Positions 1 to 18,768 of a stretch of DNA of 33,001 nucleotides are shown here, one piece after another. The stretch is taken from assembly GCA_027030405.1 (NCBI GenBank), contig JALVEZ010000101.1, positions 1 through 33,001 on the forward strand. The letters run 5' to 3'. The DNA is from Hydrogenothermaceae bacterium. GTDB lineage: Bacteria > Aquificota > Aquificia > Aquificales > Hydrogenothermaceae. Positions within the stretch are counted from its first letter, which is position 1. Every line of letters starts with the position of its first letter. The notes beneath the pieces were generated by a model. The model made no database searches, was not told where the DNA came from, and was given only the letters and a program-made list of their open reading frames with translations. The translations under genes and the position numbers were made by a program.

Positions 1-1
1 A

Positions 2-1861
2 GATAAAAATTTTTATGATGGTTTAAAACTTTTTATAAAAAATTACAGCTTTAAAAAAGCATCGTGGAACGATATACAAAAATCTTTTGAAACTGTATCT
101 AAAAAGAATTTAGACTGGTTTTTTAAGCAGTGGCTTTACAGAAAAGGGATACCTCAGATAGAGATACAAAAGCCAGAAGTTAAAGTTTCTAAAGGCAAAT
201 TCTTAGTTTCTTTTGATATTGTGCAAAAAAATGAACCTTACATCTTAGGTATTCCAGTGGTTATAAAAACAGTTTTTGGTGATGTTAAGAAAGTTATCAG
301 ACTTTCAAAAAAGAAACAGAGTTTTAAACTTTATCTAAATGATGAACCGATCAAATTAGTATTTGATCCTGATTATGACCTGTTTAGGAGTTTATCAAAA
401 GATGAAAAACCTCCTGTTCTTTATGATTTTTTAGGTGCAAAAAAAGTGGTTTTTGTTGTTGATAATAAACTAATAAATAAATACCAGCCGCTTATAAACA
501 TATTTAAAAATCATCAGATCGTTTCACCTGAAAATCTGAATTATAAAACGATGAAAAATAACTACCTTATTTTCCTTGATAAAACAAATCCTAAAATAAA
601 ATTTTATTTTGGGGATGTTCAGTTCAGGCAGGATTTCCACCTTATCTCCAAGAAAAATCCGTGGGATAGTATAAAATCTGTATTGCTTATTAATGCAGTT
701 GATAAGTTTGAGATAAATATGATTTCTCGAAGGCTTAAACATTACGGAAAATATTCTGAACTGATCGGTAAAGATGGAAGGATTATTCAGAAAAAAGTTT
801 ATCCTTCAGAAAAGGGAATCAATGTAAACCTTAGAAAAAAGACCGTAGGCGTTTATTTACCTTTAGTTGAAGATATAAATACAATCATTTCAAACTTAGA
901 AAATGAGCGTATTGTTTACGTAGGTGAACAGCATAATAAGTTTTCCCATCATACAACACAGTTAGATATAATCAAGGGACTTTATAAAAAACATAAAAAA
1001 GTTGCCATTGGGATGGAGATGTTCCAGAGACCATTCCAGAAATATATAGATCAGTATATAAACGGGCAGATCGATGAAAGAACGTTCTTAAAAAAGACAG
1101 AGTATTTTAAGAGATGGGGATTTGATTATAACCTTTATAAACCAATAATCGACTATGCAAAAGAACATAAGATTCCTATTATTGCTTTAAATATAGAAAA
1201 AGAAATAACAAAAAAGGTTTTAAGAAAAGGGATAGATTCACTTTCAGAAGAAGATAAGAAAAAACTGCCTGAAGACATCGATTTTTCGAATATAAAATAC
1301 AAGGAAAGATTAAAAAAAATATTTTTTGAACATAAAGGATCAAATCATATGAACTTTGACTACTTTTATCAGGCTCAAGTTCTATGGGATGAAACAATGG
1401 CAGAATCAATTGACAAATATCTGAAAAAACATCCGTATTTCAGAATGGTTGTGATGGCAGGAAACGGTCATATTGCTTATAAAGATAGTATTCCTTTGAG
1501 ATGTTTTAGAAGAAATGGATTTTTCTTTAAAACTGTTTTAAACGATGAAGAAGAGGATCCAGAAATTGGAGATTATGTTGTATATCCGCAGGATTTAAAA
1601 GGTGAACAGGCTCCGAAGTTAGGTGTTTTAATTGAGGATAAAAATGGGAAAGTTATAATAAAAAAAGTATTAAAAGGTAGTCTTGCTGAGAAAATTGGGT
1701 TAAAAAAAGGCGATCAGATTGTTAAGATGAACGGTTATCCAATAAAGGATATATATGATTTAAAGATTGAGCTTTACTTTTTAGGTCAAAATGGAAAAGG
1801 GATATTAGTGATAAAAAGAGGAAGAAATTTAAAAGAGATAAATATAAACCTTGAAAAGTAA
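2..1861 (+). CDS. M1-peptidase-like C-terminus fused to ChaN (Tiki/haem-binding) and PDZ domains, 5'-truncated by window
   Basis: The frame is open from the left edge, so the GTG at 221 is internal and the true start lies outside the window; 619 residues are visible. The first ~75 residues (NLDWFFKQWLYRKG, then IPQIEI) look like the C-terminal end of an M1 aminopeptidase-type protein. A linker domain follows. From about residue 304 to 515 there is a clear ChaN/PF04187 domain: IVYVGEQHN, GMEMFQRPFQ, LNIEKEI, FYQAQVLWDETMA and GNGHIAY (about residue 487). The last ~80 residues are PDZ-like (LGVLIED, AEKIGLKKGDQIVKMNG). ChaN proteins are iron/haem-linked and belong to the Tiki/TraB superfamily, which includes metalloproteases. 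An envelope location is likely, but the signal sequence is not visible. The gene ends at a hairpin shared with the convergent flagellin gene. Domain calls are confident; the substrate is unknown. Confidence 0.8.
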   Translation, partial: DKNFYDGLKLFIKNYSFKKASWNDIQKSFETVSKKNLDWFFKQWLYRKGIPQIEIQKPEVKVSKGKFLVSFDIVQKNEPYILGIPVVIKTVFGDVKKVIRLSKKKQSFKLYLNDEPIKLVFDPDYDLFRSLSKDEKPPVLYDFLGAKKVVFVVDNKLINKYQPLINIFKNHQIVSPENLNYKTMKNNYLIFLDKTNPKIKFYFGDVQFRQDFHLISKKNPWDSIKSVLLINAVDKFEINMISRRLKHYGKYSELIGKDGRIIQKKVYPSEKGINVNLRKKTVGVYLPLVEDINTIISNLENERIVYVGEQHNKFSHHTTQLDIIKGLYKKHKKVAIGMEMFQRPFQKYIDQYINGQIDERTFLKKTEYFKRWGFDYNLYKPIIDYAKEHKIPIIALNIEKEITKKVLRKGIDSLSEEDKKKLPEDIDFSNIKYKERLKKIFFEHKGSNHMNFDYFYQAQVLWDETMAESIDKYLKKHPYFRMVVMAGNGHIAYKDSIPLRCFRRNGFFFKTVLNDEEEDPEIGDYVVYPQDLKGEQAPKLGVLIEDKNGKVIIKKVLKGSLAEKIGLKKGDQIVKMNGYPIKDIYDLKIELYFLGQNGKGILVIKRGRNLKEININLEK

Positions 1862-1895: not shown

Positions 1896-2768
1896 TTATC
1901 TGAGTAATTGCATAACAAGTTGAGGCTGTTGATTTGCCTGAGCAAGCATAGCCATACCAGACTGCATGAGTATTTGATTTCTTGTGAAATCTGACATCTC
2001 TTTTGCAAAATCAACGTTTCTAATACGGGATTCTGCTTCTGATGTATTTACTCTTGTTGTTTCATTATTTGAGATAATTTTTTCAAGTTCAATCTGTGCA
2101 GAACCAAACTGAGCTGCAATATCATCAACTGCTTTAATTAAATCATCTACAGTTTTTACAGAATCATTTGCACAAGCCTGTGAAGTAACATCAATAGTAT
2201 ATCCAGTAGCTCCAATAGTAACTAAAGAAGCAGATGCCATAGATGCACTTCCAGTAGCTGCAACAACTCCAGCACCAGCTGTAGCAGAAGTTACAGTTAA
2301 TTCTTGATCTGTTCTACCACCATAATGAATTGTAAATGTTGTAGTTGTTCCACTTGAGAAAAGGTTTTGTCCATTGAATTCAGTATCTTCAAATATCTTT
2401 TTAACAGAATCTATCAGCTTATTAATATCCTGCTGAATTTGAGCTCTTGATGTATCATCAGATGTGTTTGATGCCTGAATTGTTTTAGCTTTAACATCAT
2501 TTAATATGTTGTAAACTTCTGATAAGGCACCCTGTGCAATCTGAGCAATACTTACTCCATCCTGTGCATTTCTTGTTCCTTGATCTAACGAAATAGCATA
2601 TGTTTTTAACTGGTCTGCTATAAATAAACCTGCAGCATCATCAGCAGCTCTGTTTACTCTATAGCCAGTTGCTAATCTTTCTAAGTTTTTGTTCATATTA
2701 GCTTCTGTTTTTAGAAGATTAGCGTGTGTGAAGTCTGACTGAAAGTTGTAGTTAATTCTTAGTGCCAT
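1896..2768 (-). CDS. fliC: Flagellin
   Basis: This 290-residue flagellin is the helical filament subunit secreted by the flagellar type III system. The N-terminal D0/D1 region (MALRINYNF, NMNKNLERLATGYRVNRAADDAAGL) and C-terminal D1/D0 region (ESRIRNVDFAKEMS, NQILMQSGMAMLAQANQ) are canonical. The middle is short, rich in Ala, Ser, Thr and Gly, and carries one cysteine (TSQACAND), which is rare in flagellins. The start at 2768 is chosen over an in-frame upstream start at 2906 because GGAGG lies at 2778-2782, flagellin homology begins at MALR, and a sigma-28 promoter at 2803-2829 sits inside the would-be extension. No other flagellar gene is in the window, so it is a solitary late-class gene. 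Confidence 0.95.
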   Translation of the reverse strand: MALRINYNFQSDFTHANLLKTEANMNKNLERLATGYRVNRAADDAAGLFIADQLKTYAISLDQGTRNAQDGVSIAQIAQGALSEVYNILNDVKAKTIQASNTSDDTSRAQIQQDINKLIDSVKKIFEDTEFNGQNLFSSGTTTTFTIHYGGRTDQELTVTSATAGAGVVAATGSASMASASLVTIGATGYTIDVTSQACANDSVKTVDDLIKAVDDIAAQFGSAQIELEKIISNNETTRVNTSEAESRIRNVDFAKEMSDFTRNQILMQSGMAMLAQANQQPQLVMQLLR

Positions 2769-2802
2769 GACTAAATACCTCCAATTTTTTTGTTGGATTC
2801 TA

Positions 2803-2829
2803 TTATCGGAGAGGTTTTTTGATTTTTTA
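2803..2829 (-). promoter_or_regulatory. Sigma-28 (FliA) promoter of flagellin
   Basis: On the minus strand, TAAA (2826-2829), exactly 15 nt, then TCCGATAA (2803-2810). The FliA consensus is TAAA-N15-GCCGATAA, so only one -10 base differs. Transcription would begin near 2796, leaving a short leader with GGAGG before the ATG at 2768. Confidence 0.85.
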
Positions 2830-2976
2830 GTCTTTATGTATCTTTTTTGAAAATGTTGATAAATCTTACTTATATTGTTTATATATTGTTTAATAGAAAA
2901 TGACAATACTTTGAAAAATTTGAAAAATTTAAGATTTTATATAAAATATTACAAACTCTAATGAGGAAGGTAATCT

Positions 2977-6036: not shown

Positions 6037-6942
6037 TTAATTAACATTTTCGCATTTGAAGTTTTTGAGTTCTGGCTGTATGGTTATATGGTTAATGCCT
6101 TCTTTTCTTAAAATCTCAATTATCTGCTGGATAATCTCATCAACTCTTTTGAAAGATAAACCATCTTTTAATGTTATATGTCCTGAAAAATATATATCAT
6201 TAGAAGACAGAGCCCATACATGAATATCATGAACACTCTCAATCTCAGGAATTTTTAATATCTCTTCTTCTATTTTATTTAGATTGAACTGTTCAGGAAC
6301 ACCTTCCATCAGGATTTTATAACTTTTTTTCAAGATAGGAACTGTTTCTTTTAAGATATAAAGACTGAAGAGTATAGAAATTACAGGGTCTATCCAGTAA
6401 ATATGGAAAAAGTATATAAAAATACCGCCTATTACAACAGCCAACGATATGCCAGCATCACTTAACAAATGTAGATAAGCAGCAGAGATATTTAGATCTT
6501 CGTGATGATGGTGATGATCATCATCACCGTGTCCGTGATGATGAAACCCTAAAATAAAAACAGATAAACTGTTTAAAACGAAAGCAATAAATCCAACAAC
6601 AATAACATATAGCCCTTCAATTTCTTCTGGAAATAAAAGTCTTTCAATTCCAGAAAAGATGATAAAAAACACAGCACCAACTAAAAAAAGAGCATTTACA
6701 AATCCTGCCATAGCCTCAGCACGGAGATAACCGAATGTCATTGTTTCGGTTGGTTTCTTGGTCATCCAGATAGCAGCAATAAGTGCAATTATTAGTGAAA
6801 CAACATCTTGAAAGTTATGAACTGCATCTGTTATAAGTGCCAGCGAATTGCTTATAAATCCAAATAAAACCTGAGCAATTACAATTCCTAAGTTTAAAGC
6901 AATAACTAAATAAAGTTTTTTTATGTTCTTATTTATTTCCAA
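6037..6942 (-). CDS. Cation diffusion facilitator (CDF) metal-efflux transporter, CzcD/ZitB type
   Basis: This 301-residue inner-membrane proton/divalent-cation antiporter has six predicted TM segments and a cytoplasmic ferredoxin-like domain. TM2 carries the metal-site motif TDAVHNFQD and TM5 carries HLLSDAG, both typical of zinc CDFs. A histidine/aspartate-rich cytoplasmic loop (residues about 143-156, HHHGHGDDDHHHHH) lies between TM4 and TM5. The C-terminal domain has VHDIHVWALSSN. Zinc, cobalt or cadmium is the likely substrate. The start is TTG at 6940-6942 behind AGGTGG. It diverges from the Kazal-like lipoprotein gene with only about 46 bp between the starts, so the promoters must share or overlap that space. 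Confidence 0.92.
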   Translation of the reverse strand: MEINKNIKKLYLVIALNLGIVIAQVLFGFISNSLALITDAVHNFQDVVSLIIALIAAIWMTKKPTETMTFGYLRAEAMAGFVNALFLVGAVFFIIFSGIERLLFPEEIEGLYVIVVGFIAFVLNSLSVFILGFHHHGHGDDDHHHHHEDLNISAAYLHLLSDAGISLAVVIGGIFIYFFHIYWIDPVISILFSLYILKETVPILKKSYKILMEGVPEQFNLNKIEEEILKIPEIESVHDIHVWALSSNDIYFSGHITLKDGLSFKRVDEIIQQIIEILRKEGINHITIQPELKNFKCENVN

Positions 6943-6988
6943 GTCTTACCACCTACCAGAAATTGATAACATTACTATAATATTATTT

Positions 6989-7294
6989 ATGAAAAAAATA
7001 AAAATTATTTTTTTGAGCTTCTTGTTTATTTTGAGTTACGGTTGCTATTTAGATGATAATCATGATCATTTTCGTAAAGGTTGTGATACCAACTCAGATT
7101 GTAAGATAGATCAGTTTTGTAAAAAAGAAGATGGCGATTGCAATGGTATCGGTGAATGTGTAGAAAAACCCGAAGTTTATCCAATGATATTTGATCCTGT
7201 GTGTGGATGTGATGGAAAAACATACTCAAATAAATGGGAAGCGTGGCATTTCGGAACGAATGTAGCATATAAAGGAGAATGCATAAAGAAATAA
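6989..7294 (+). CDS. Kazal-like cysteine-rich lipoprotein
   Basis: This 101-residue protein has a lipoprotein signal peptide ending in LSYGC, with lipidation expected at C19. The mature part has C32, C38, C44, C51 and C57, then the Kazal signature PVCGCDGKTYSN with C72 and C74, and GEC with C98. Kazal domains inhibit serine proteases in animals; bacterial versions are surface or periplasmic and mostly uncharacterised. Two positions that are usually Cys in bacterial relatives are Y64 (PEVY, normally PEVC) and W83 (NKW, normally NxC), so one disulfide seems to be lost. ATG at 6989 is preferred over 6923 because the signal peptide starts there. Its stop overlaps the next start as TAATG. Confidence 0.8.
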   Translation: MKKIKIIFLSFLFILSYGCYLDDNHDHFRKGCDTNSDCKIDQFCKKEDGDCNGIGECVEKPEVYPMIFDPVCGCDGKTYSNKWEAWHFGTNVAYKGECIKK

Positions 7295-14231: not shown

Positions 14232-15215
14232 ATGAAAGTTGTTGCATTAGGTGGAGGCACAGGCTTATCCTCTCTCTTAAGGGGTCTAAAAACTTTAGTT
14301 CCTGAAAAAATAGATGATTTATCTGCAATCGTAACGGTAGCAGATAATGGGGGAAGCTCAGGAAGACTAAGGGAAGAAATGAATATCCCAGCTCCTGGAG
14401 ATATCAGGAACTGTATCGTTGCACTGGCAGAGGATGAAGATATTTTATCAAAAGTTTTTCAATATAGATTTCAAGAAGGTGAAGGTCTAAAAGGACATAG
14501 TTTCGGTAACCTCTTTTTAACAGTCTTAACCAAGATAACAGGTGATTTTTTAGAAGCAGTTGAAATAACATCTGACATTTTAAAAATTAAAGGTAGAATA
14601 ATCCCTTCAACAGATGAAATAGTGAATCTTGTTGCTGAATTTTCTGACGGAAAAATCATAAAAGGTGAATCAGAAATAACAGAGTATGGAAAACAACTAA
14701 AAGCAAAAATAAAAAAGATATGGTTAGAACCTGAAGATGTAAAAGCACCACCAGAAGCTGTTGAAAAAATAATGAATGCAGATTTTGTTTTATTAGGCCC
14801 AGGAAGTTTATTTACAAGTATAGTTCCAAATCTATTGGTAAAAGATATTAGAGAAGCTTTATTAAAAACGAAAGCTTTTAAGATTTATATAGTTAATGTT
14901 ATGACACAGTACGGTGAAACAGATGGTTTTTCTGCATCTGATCATGTAAAAGCTCTACATGAGGTTGTAGGAAAACCATTTATCAATGGAGTAATTCTTA
15001 ATACACAATTACCACCTGATGATGTTCTAAAAAGATATCTTCAAGAACATGCAGAACCTGTTGTGGCAGATGCAGGAAACCTTTCAAGGATGGGAATAAC
15101 TGTCTGTTCTGGGGAGTTACTAGATGAGGGTACATATGCAAGACATAATCCTCAAAAATTAACTCAGATGTTAATGACATTCTTTGAAAAACATTTACAA
15201 ACTGCACAGGCTTAA
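14232..15215 (+). CDS. yvcK: YvcK/GlmR-type gluconeogenesis and cell-wall factor (CofD-like)
   Basis: This 327-residue protein has the YvcK/CofD-like fold. KVVALGGGTGLSSLLRGLK is the nucleotide-sugar-binding start, followed by VTVADNGGSSGRLREE, APGDIRNC, GHSFGNLFLT and LLGPGSLFTSIVPNLL. In Bacillus, YvcK/GlmR binds UDP-GlcNAc and supports GlmS-dependent cell-wall precursor supply during gluconeogenic growth; it is not a known enzyme. That role suits an autotroph that lives by gluconeogenesis. The usual rapZ and whiA neighbours are absent. The stop overlaps the nadB ATG by one base (TAATG, 15213-15217), implying translational coupling. Confidence 0.92.
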   Translation: MKVVALGGGTGLSSLLRGLKTLVPEKIDDLSAIVTVADNGGSSGRLREEMNIPAPGDIRNCIVALAEDEDILSKVFQYRFQEGEGLKGHSFGNLFLTVLTKITGDFLEAVEITSDILKIKGRIIPSTDEIVNLVAEFSDGKIIKGESEITEYGKQLKAKIKKIWLEPEDVKAPPEAVEKIMNADFVLLGPGSLFTSIVPNLLVKDIREALLKTKAFKIYIVNVMTQYGETDGFSASDHVKALHEVVGKPFINGVILNTQLPPDDVLKRYLQEHAEPVVADAGNLSRMGITVCSGELLDEGTYARHNPQKLTQMLMTFFEKHLQTAQA

Positions 15216-17921: not shown

Positions 17922-18329
17922 TTAGGAAAAAATTTGTTTTAAAAGGTTTATGGTTTCTAAGTTTAGATGGAGTTCTTGATTTTCGATTGATAAATACGGT
18001 TCTATACCGTATCTATTGAATAATTCGCTAAATTTTGTTTTATCAAGGTTATCAATTATAGACAAGTATTCTTCAAATAAAAATTTATCTGCTACTTTAA
18101 AAGCAGAAACAAGTGCCATAAATTTTGCGTCAATATGTGAAGATAACTGAAAATATTTTATAGCTTCTGTGTAATGTCTTTCGGTTATATGCCTGCAACC
18201 TTTTAAAAACCATTTATCATCAATCTGTATATCTTCTTCCAATAACTTTTCAAAATAATCCTTATCTAAAAGATTTCCTTCTTTCTTTAAAAGAATTTTT
18301 ATTCTTCTAAAATTTAAATTTTCAGTCAT
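17922..18329 (-). CDS. Small predicted helical (TPR-like) protein, unknown
   Basis: This 135-residue protein has no signal peptide and is probably all-helical. The stretch DDKWFLKGCRHITERHYTEAIKYFQLSS (residues 37-64) has the spacing of a TPR/Sel1-like repeat. I do not recognise a named family. It is the third gene of gltX, phosphatase, this gene, joined by 8-nt overlaps, so it is co-translated with them. A truncated paralog of its last ~30 codons lies at 17312-17400. The motif WFLKGC (W40-C45) resembles WFLKAC in the exported Cys-rich protein at 27882-28163. A direct repeat and hairpin occur within its 3' coding part. Confidence 0.6.
   Translation of the reverse strand: MTENLNFRRIKILLKKEGNLLDKDYFEKLLEEDIQIDDKWFLKGCRHITERHYTEAIKYFQLSSHIDAKFMALVSAFKVADKFLFEEYLSIIDNLDKTKFSELFNRYGIEPYLSIENQELHLNLETINLLKQIFS
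17995..18017. repeat. 23-bp direct repeat, copy 2 (inside the intact gene)
   Basis: Identical to 17378-17400. Here the inverted repeat is longer: ATACGGT and ACCGTAT form a perfect 7-bp stem around TCTAT (starting one base before the repeat). The bases encode NRYGIEPY on the minus strand. Confidence 0.85.
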
Positions 18330-18768
18330 TTCTAGTCAACTTTTCTAAATTTTGTAAAAATGATATCTGTTCGAATGTTTCTGGCAAAAAACCTTTTAAC
18401 ATAACAGTATCCAGTGCATCATTATAACTTTTTCCTTTGTATATAAGATATCCAGCTAAAATTGTTCCTGTTCTTGCCCTTCCGTATTTACAATGGACAA
18501 CAACCTTTTTCCCTTTATTCAACAACTCATCAATATATTCATAAATAGGGATTATTTCATCAACTTCTAGATGAGAATACATACTCAATGGCAGATACAC
18601 TGCGTTAAATCCTTTTTCTTTCTGTTTTTCAAAGAGGAAGGTTCCGTATGAACCTTCCAAGAGATTAACAATAGTATCTATTCCGTATTCTTTCCATTTG
18701 TCAAGTTCATCAACATCAGGGGCTCGACTGCCCCCTAAATTTTCAGTTATCCATCTGAAATTATCCAA
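18322..18768 (-). CDS. Dual-specificity-type protein phosphatase
   Basis: This 148-residue protein has the Cys-phosphatase loop HCKYGRARTG (H92, C93, R99; pattern HCx5R-T) preceded by the beta strand KVVV, as in dual-specificity phosphatases. The N-terminus (WITENLGGSRAPDVDELDKWKEYGIDTIVNL) is the usual DSP start. It would dephosphorylate phospho-Ser/Thr/Tyr or possibly a phospholipid or polyphosphate; the substrate cannot be told. The start is TTG at 18766-18768, inside the end of gltX, with only a weak ribosome-binding site, so translation probably depends on coupling. Its end overlaps the helical-protein gene by 8 nt. Confidence 0.85.
   Translation of the reverse strand: MDNFRWITENLGGSRAPDVDELDKWKEYGIDTIVNLLEGSYGTFLFEKQKEKGFNAVYLPLSMYSHLEVDEIIPIYEYIDELLNKGKKVVVHCKYGRARTGTILAGYLIYKGKSYNDALDTVMLKGFLPETFEQISFLQNLEKLTRND

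Follow-up and report, generated by a model that had tools for sequence, protein, structure and literature searches.

Gene structure and reconstruction of the full-length protein

The window, i.e. the whole 33,001-nucleotide stretch of DNA analysed, begins with a 619 amino-acid ORF (2-1861, plus strand), the 5′-end of which is open because the window represents the entire contig C101. The 5′ remainder of the gene was located on C113, another contig of this genome (locus L112, 3184 bases), in a minus-strand ORF at 1201-2 with an ATG at 1201. The terminal 146 bases of C113 and window positions 1-146 were identical at 145 sites, and in a search of the organism's own genome, residues 1-48 of the window part recurred at the C113 end with 98% identity. 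The joined product comprises 971 residues, of which the window ORF encodes residues 353-971, and consists of a signal-peptide-like start, an M1 core, a region designated domain X, a ChaN/Tiki domain and a PDZ domain.

The initial annotation had proposed M1-peptidase-like, ChaN and PDZ domains in one polypeptide, and Pfam identified all three on the joined protein: M1 (57 bits, residues 257-396, cut-off 27.7), ChaN (232.8 bits, residues 648-852) and PDZ_2 (residues 890-969). The M1 model PF01433 was matched from its position 72 only, and the window part alone retained the tail of the domain (residues 2-44, 14.5 bits, below the cut-off of 27.7). The M1 catalytic core anticipated upstream does lie on L112, where HEILH-x17-E and the catalytic Tyr were found, and the start of the joined protein, as judged by eye, resembles the signal peptide that was also to be looked for.

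On the plus strand of the window, the gene starts with the terminal stretch of the M1 catalytic domain (2-145, by Pfam; HExxH-x17-E and Tyr337 are upstream on L112), followed by the M1 beta-sandwich, or domain III (146-376, approximately residues 401-477), delimited by eye from model strands and structural alignment, and by domain X (377-865, limits by eye), an alpha/beta region of about 160 residues with an HYGKYS motif. The ChaN/Tiki domain (PF04187, 887-1501, window-part residues 296-500, 234 bits) carries the motifs GEQHN (923-937), GMEMFQRPFQ (1010-1039) and GNGH (1460-1471), which on the basis of translation and alignment contribute E661 and H663, E691, and H842, respectively, to the Tiki 2His/2Glu set. 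All three had been described as intact and are present in the translation. The HtrA/DegP-like PDZ domain is located at 1613-1852 (window-part residues 538-617, PDZ_2 37 bits).

An assembly chimera, or a chance joining of unrelated frames, can be regarded as refuted. A contig end does cut the gene in this genome, but the overlap of C113 and C101 has a single mismatch in 146 bases, and M1, ChaN and PDZ_2 were found together, each at E 0.001, in 45/45 proteins of alignment A2, a subset of the fetched relatives.

Other window genes include a flagellin-like gene, identified by eye (1896-2906, minus strand), with a listed TTG start 46 residues before a likelier ATG. A small protein of 123 residues, exported-looking by eye (6923-7294, plus strand), contains a Kazal-type inhibitor domain (26 bits against a cut-off of 21), which is unusual for a bacterium. 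A CofD-like 2-phospho-L-lactate transferase (14232-15215, plus strand, 382 bits), which as a coenzyme F420 enzyme would be unexpected in this organism, is followed by a FAD_binding_2/Succ_DH_flav_C protein, and a gene for a dual-specificity-phosphatase-like protein (18322-18768, minus strand) adjoins a class I Glu/Gln-type tRNA synthetase gene.

Conserved residues and fold of the M1 part

Scanning of GTDB genome contigs returned 291 stretches encoding relatives, and the best 80 of the 291 were retained. The record titles of these 80 name Hydrogenothermaceae or Aquificota, Nitrospirae, Deltaproteobacteria, Syntrophaceae, Schekmanbacteria and a few others, including 'uncultured archaeon' (titles as deposited); the best titled relative (Hydrogenothermaceae, Aquificota) had 51-52% identity. 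Conservation was followed in an alignment of 90 proteins, taken from these stretches and from further relatives and including the joined protein, with frames of 880-1120 residues devoid of long X runs; four duplicates were removed, and frames that were contig-cut, masked or short did not enter the alignment.

As read from the alignment, the zinc-site residues of the M1 core are intact. H258, E259, H262, E280 and Y337 were each kept in 89/90 proteins, and the spacing from HExxH to the third ligand was 17 residues in 85 proteins, 15 in three, 16 in one and unmatched in one. The sole exception was L053, in which all five catalytic residues were changed and M1 identity was down to 45%, ChaN identity still being 56%; such a joint loss is as expected if the five residues form one site. 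Structure models were obtained for the window part (pLDDT 91.7, pTM 0.79) and for relative L002, of which 941 residues without the signal were modelled (pLDDT 92.1, pTM 0.83), and the latter model matched the M1 core fold of tricorn factor F3 (1z1w) with a Z-score of 30.3 and 2.8 Å over 434 residues.

The canonical M1 motif GxMEN, which holds the free substrate N-terminus, was present in 0/90 aligned proteins. It was present in 31/31 canonical M1 proteins, these being E. coli PepN and the 30 best-scoring of a phylum draw described below, i.e. not a random sample and one without the divergent M1 proteins that scored lower in the draw. In hhalign, a conserved VEN, a candidate stand-in for the motif, fell near GAMEN, its E226 being 32 residues before the HExxH His, when the GAMEN Glu is 33 before; going by the secondary structure of the model, GYSMP and not VEN would lie on the strand corresponding to GAMEN. 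With the zinc site and fold present and GxMEN absent, the protein has an M1 fold but would not be a classical M1 aminopeptidase. Without the motif, the usual mode of holding free N-termini would not be available to the M1 site, and its specificity is probably unusual. A branch of M1 without the exopeptidase motif is thereby described.

The ChaN/Tiki domain

ChaN is known mainly from one haem-bound structure. The Tiki set of E661, H663, E691 and H842 was conserved in 90/90 aligned proteins, as were H669, R852, W814, D815 and E816. Within GNGH, the first G and the H were each found in 90/90 proteins, and the N position was variable (N in 11/90). The ChaN model aligned with haem-bound ChaN 2g5g (Z 23.4, rmsd 2.7 Å, 228 residues), and further with the Ere-family protein BcR135 (3b55, Z 15.1) and EreC (6xcs, Z 14.5). 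In haem-binding 2g5g, the E/H, E and H fall at the four Tiki-set positions of the alignment, and with these residues in common, the set does not tell an enzyme apart from a carrier of haem.

Passages of PMC6254334 present 2His/2Glu as the catalytic set common to TIKI enzymes, and describe a TIKI endopeptidase that needs this set together with a nearby basic residue and works without metal. According to the same passages, a superfamily member without the set failed to cleave the tested substrate, and therefore the fold alone is no proof of proteolysis. The invariant R852 may be the counterpart of the TIKI basic residue.

Domain X, PDZ and export signal

Both catalytic cores are better conserved than the parts between and around them, when compared by mean pairwise identity: 57% for the M1 catalytic part and 55% for ChaN, against 36% for the N-terminal beta region, 28% for the beta-sandwich, 36% for domain X and 37% for the linker. 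The PDZ domain had 40% and the signal peptide 19%. Structural alignment to M1 aminopeptidases extended across the beta-sandwich, and domain X was barely covered by the VIA-align rows for the window model. Among 40 members, no Pfam match to domain X reached E 0.001 (best E 0.0019), and its best sequence match in PDB had an E-value of 0.048 only. BcsB and Cwp6 chains, listed by Foldseek for the window model, had TM-scores of 0.11-0.15 and were set aside. The PDZ model matched the DegP PDZ 8f0a_D (Z 12.8, rmsd 1.2 Å, 73 residues), and also HtrA. Among the NCBIfam matches listed for the window part, L002 and L074 (25 of 28 for L074), none reached cut-off.

A crude export-signal test was passed by 71 of the 81 proteins for which a Met start was assigned, and 0/81 showed the lipobox pattern; the remaining nine of the 90 were the joined protein and eight without an assigned Met start. 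By eye, the N-terminus of the joined protein has no lipobox-type Cys. The location would most likely be periplasmic, without a lipid anchor.

Distribution, neighbourhood and origin

In the organism's own genome and 60 relatives of the same family or order, PF04187 was found in 46 genomes, with one ChaN match per genome, and PF01433 in 21, and all 21 M1-bearing genomes had ChaN as well. The two domains were in one frame in 18 of these, and in three (G000, G011, G017) split over two contigs cut at their ends; no M1 apart from ChaN was detected at E 0.001 in the 61 genomes. A short ChaN only (frames of 211-346 residues), without an M1 match, occurred in 24 genomes, one (G035) had only a contig-cut ChaN end matching the fused form, and 15 had neither domain. 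Outside this set, many divergent M1 frames, about 665-1200 residues long, had no ChaN match. In 14 named control genomes, PF04187 was matched in one, below cut-off.

The phylum draw consisted of 100 genomes from the phylum to which G063 belongs; L009 lies in this genome, which is titled Nitrospirae. ChaN was present in 42/100, and in 13 genomes it was in frames of 990-1050 residues, with M1 in-frame in 13/13; in G130 the in-frame M1 match was below cut-off. Seven of the 13 had a second, separate ChaN, and beyond the 13, ChaN matches of comparable strength were found in G112, G125, G140 and G135, in frames that were shorter. The M1-ChaN-PDZ combination is common to several bacterial groups.

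Neighbouring genes were clustered across 6.5 kb at 73 loci, those of 71 relatives together with the window and L112, and no widely conserved neighbour was found, the commonest cluster besides the gene itself covering 13/73 loci. Within 150 bases, the upstream neighbours in 71 loci were on the same strand in 21 and on the opposite in 15, and the downstream neighbours in 23 and 27, respectively. The two recurrent neighbours, a downstream gene in seven loci and an upstream gene in six, which we take to be HflX-like and DUF362-like, respectively, were rejected as functional clues, their recurrence probably being synteny of related genomes. In 15 phylum-draw genomes a short ChaN and a canonical M1 gene were about 6-14 kb apart. 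This was likewise set aside as a functional link: the five regions inspected were largely syntenic throughout, which is taken as a block inherited by shared descent.

Trees were built with a quick method from 42 of the 90 fused proteins. On the ChaN tree, the fused label needs two changes, with a single fused clade not rejected (p-AU 0.53), and on the M1 tree it needed three. Standalone Aquificales ChaN was placed beside L080, L039, L058, L052 and L053 on the ChaN tree; when the long rows S_L159_2, S_L161_4 and S_L111_1 were removed, it grouped with the Aquificota fused clade with a support of 96.

Proposed function

A single-chain, exported peptidase with two active sites is our favoured reading, at slightly under even confidence. 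It draws on the retention of the M1 residues (89/90) and of the Tiki set (90/90), on the better conservation of both cores compared to the rest of the protein, signal peptide aside, and on M1 always being accompanied by ChaN in the own genome and 60 relatives. An exported protease with PDZ capturing substrates fits the data. The domains, the active-site residues and an export-like start are established by sequence and models; proteolysis, the order in which the sites act, the part played by PDZ and the location are inferred.

Large M1 aminopeptidases are capped by a helical C-terminal domain. In its place, the protein would have domain X, ChaN/Tiki and PDZ. The PDZ domain would capture envelope proteins that are unfolded or damaged by binding their C-termini, or else would bind a partner; internal cleavage of the captured protein would fall to the Tiki domain, and the M1 site would trim the resulting products. 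This more specific picture of a one-chain envelope proteolysis machine, with PDZ for capture, Tiki/ChaN as the endopeptidase and a GxMEN-less M1 for trimming, is put forward tentatively, as a possibility with the chances against it.

Handling of haem or haemoproteins would instead have ChaN bind haem and M1 trim or degrade cytochromes or haem proteins outside the cytoplasm. The top structural match of the domain is indeed C. jejuni ChaN with cofacial haem (2g5g), which retains the E/H, E and H positions, but no neighbour gene of any sort is widely conserved, and in the passages of PMC6254334, Tiki domains that are related and carry these residues act as hydrolases; we consider haem handling unlikely. 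The EreC and BcR135 matches bring in another alternative, rated as distinctly unlikely: ChaN would be a non-peptide hydrolase, esterase-like as the erythromycin esterases, and M1 would process the peptide moiety of that substrate, which could be a lipopeptide or a peptide of the cell wall. The absence of GxMEN does hint at an unusual M1 substrate, but no data point to a given small substrate, and PDZ domains of HtrA type are known for protein substrates in the consulted part of PMC6411480.

If ChaN were the sole catalytic site and the M1 part mainly a scaffold, then L053, a natural homologue that lost the entire M1 site and keeps ChaN and PDZ, would be accommodated, as would the modest M1 Pfam score of 57 bits. 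All five M1 residues are nevertheless kept in 89/90 proteins, and the M1 catalytic part is as well conserved as ChaN, which makes a scaffold highly improbable. Should the reading as a two-site machine be true, the widespread ChaN fold would be an enzyme and not merely a haem carrier, with the fusion as the natural clue to the role of ChaN. With the fusion conserved and the ChaN residues invariant in 90/90 proteins, the question whether ChaN is a hydrolase becomes testable on one soluble protein, and the fused protein is available from heat-loving bacteria.

Comparison with known systems

In the open-licence full-text literature searched, the M1-ChaN-PDZ architecture was not described by title or abstract, and M1-X-ChaN-PDZ is apparently a new and unstudied arrangement of known domains. 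Among the closest published counterparts are those in PMC6411480, the consulted part of which counts 37 PDZ-ChaN proteins in 37 organisms, one of them in Aquificae. They are uncharacterised, classed as non-proteases, and iron binding is suggested. PDZ and ChaN are combined in them as here, but no M1 partner is named in that part, and a figure legend gives M61, not M1.

The modules also occur separately, as is evident from a ChaN-less M1 and X protein of 731 amino acids encoded at L026 (9732-11924, minus strand), a locus that also has a fused M1-ChaN gene. It aligns along M1 and X with 36% identity to the fused L026 protein and 29% to the joined protein, but unlike the fused form it has no ChaN match and is too short for PDZ.

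With the M1 zinc aminopeptidases (PF01433; F3, PepN) the family shares the core fold, HExxH...E and Tyr, but it is devoid of GxMEN and has ChaN and PDZ appended. The spacing is x18 in E. coli PepN and x17 in 85/90 proteins here, and the alignment to F3 stops at F3 residue 548 of 780. C. jejuni ChaN (2g5g, PF04187) has the same fold and the E/H, E and H positions; however, it is a putative lipoprotein of 268 residues, when here ChaN is inside a protein of 971 residues and a lipobox was found in 0/81. The TIKI superfamily hydrolases, including erythromycin esterases by fold and the endopeptidase of PMC6254334 (as described in its passages), have the 2His/2Glu set in common with the family, and their basic residue may be matched by the invariant Arg, but their accessory domains differ from those found here.
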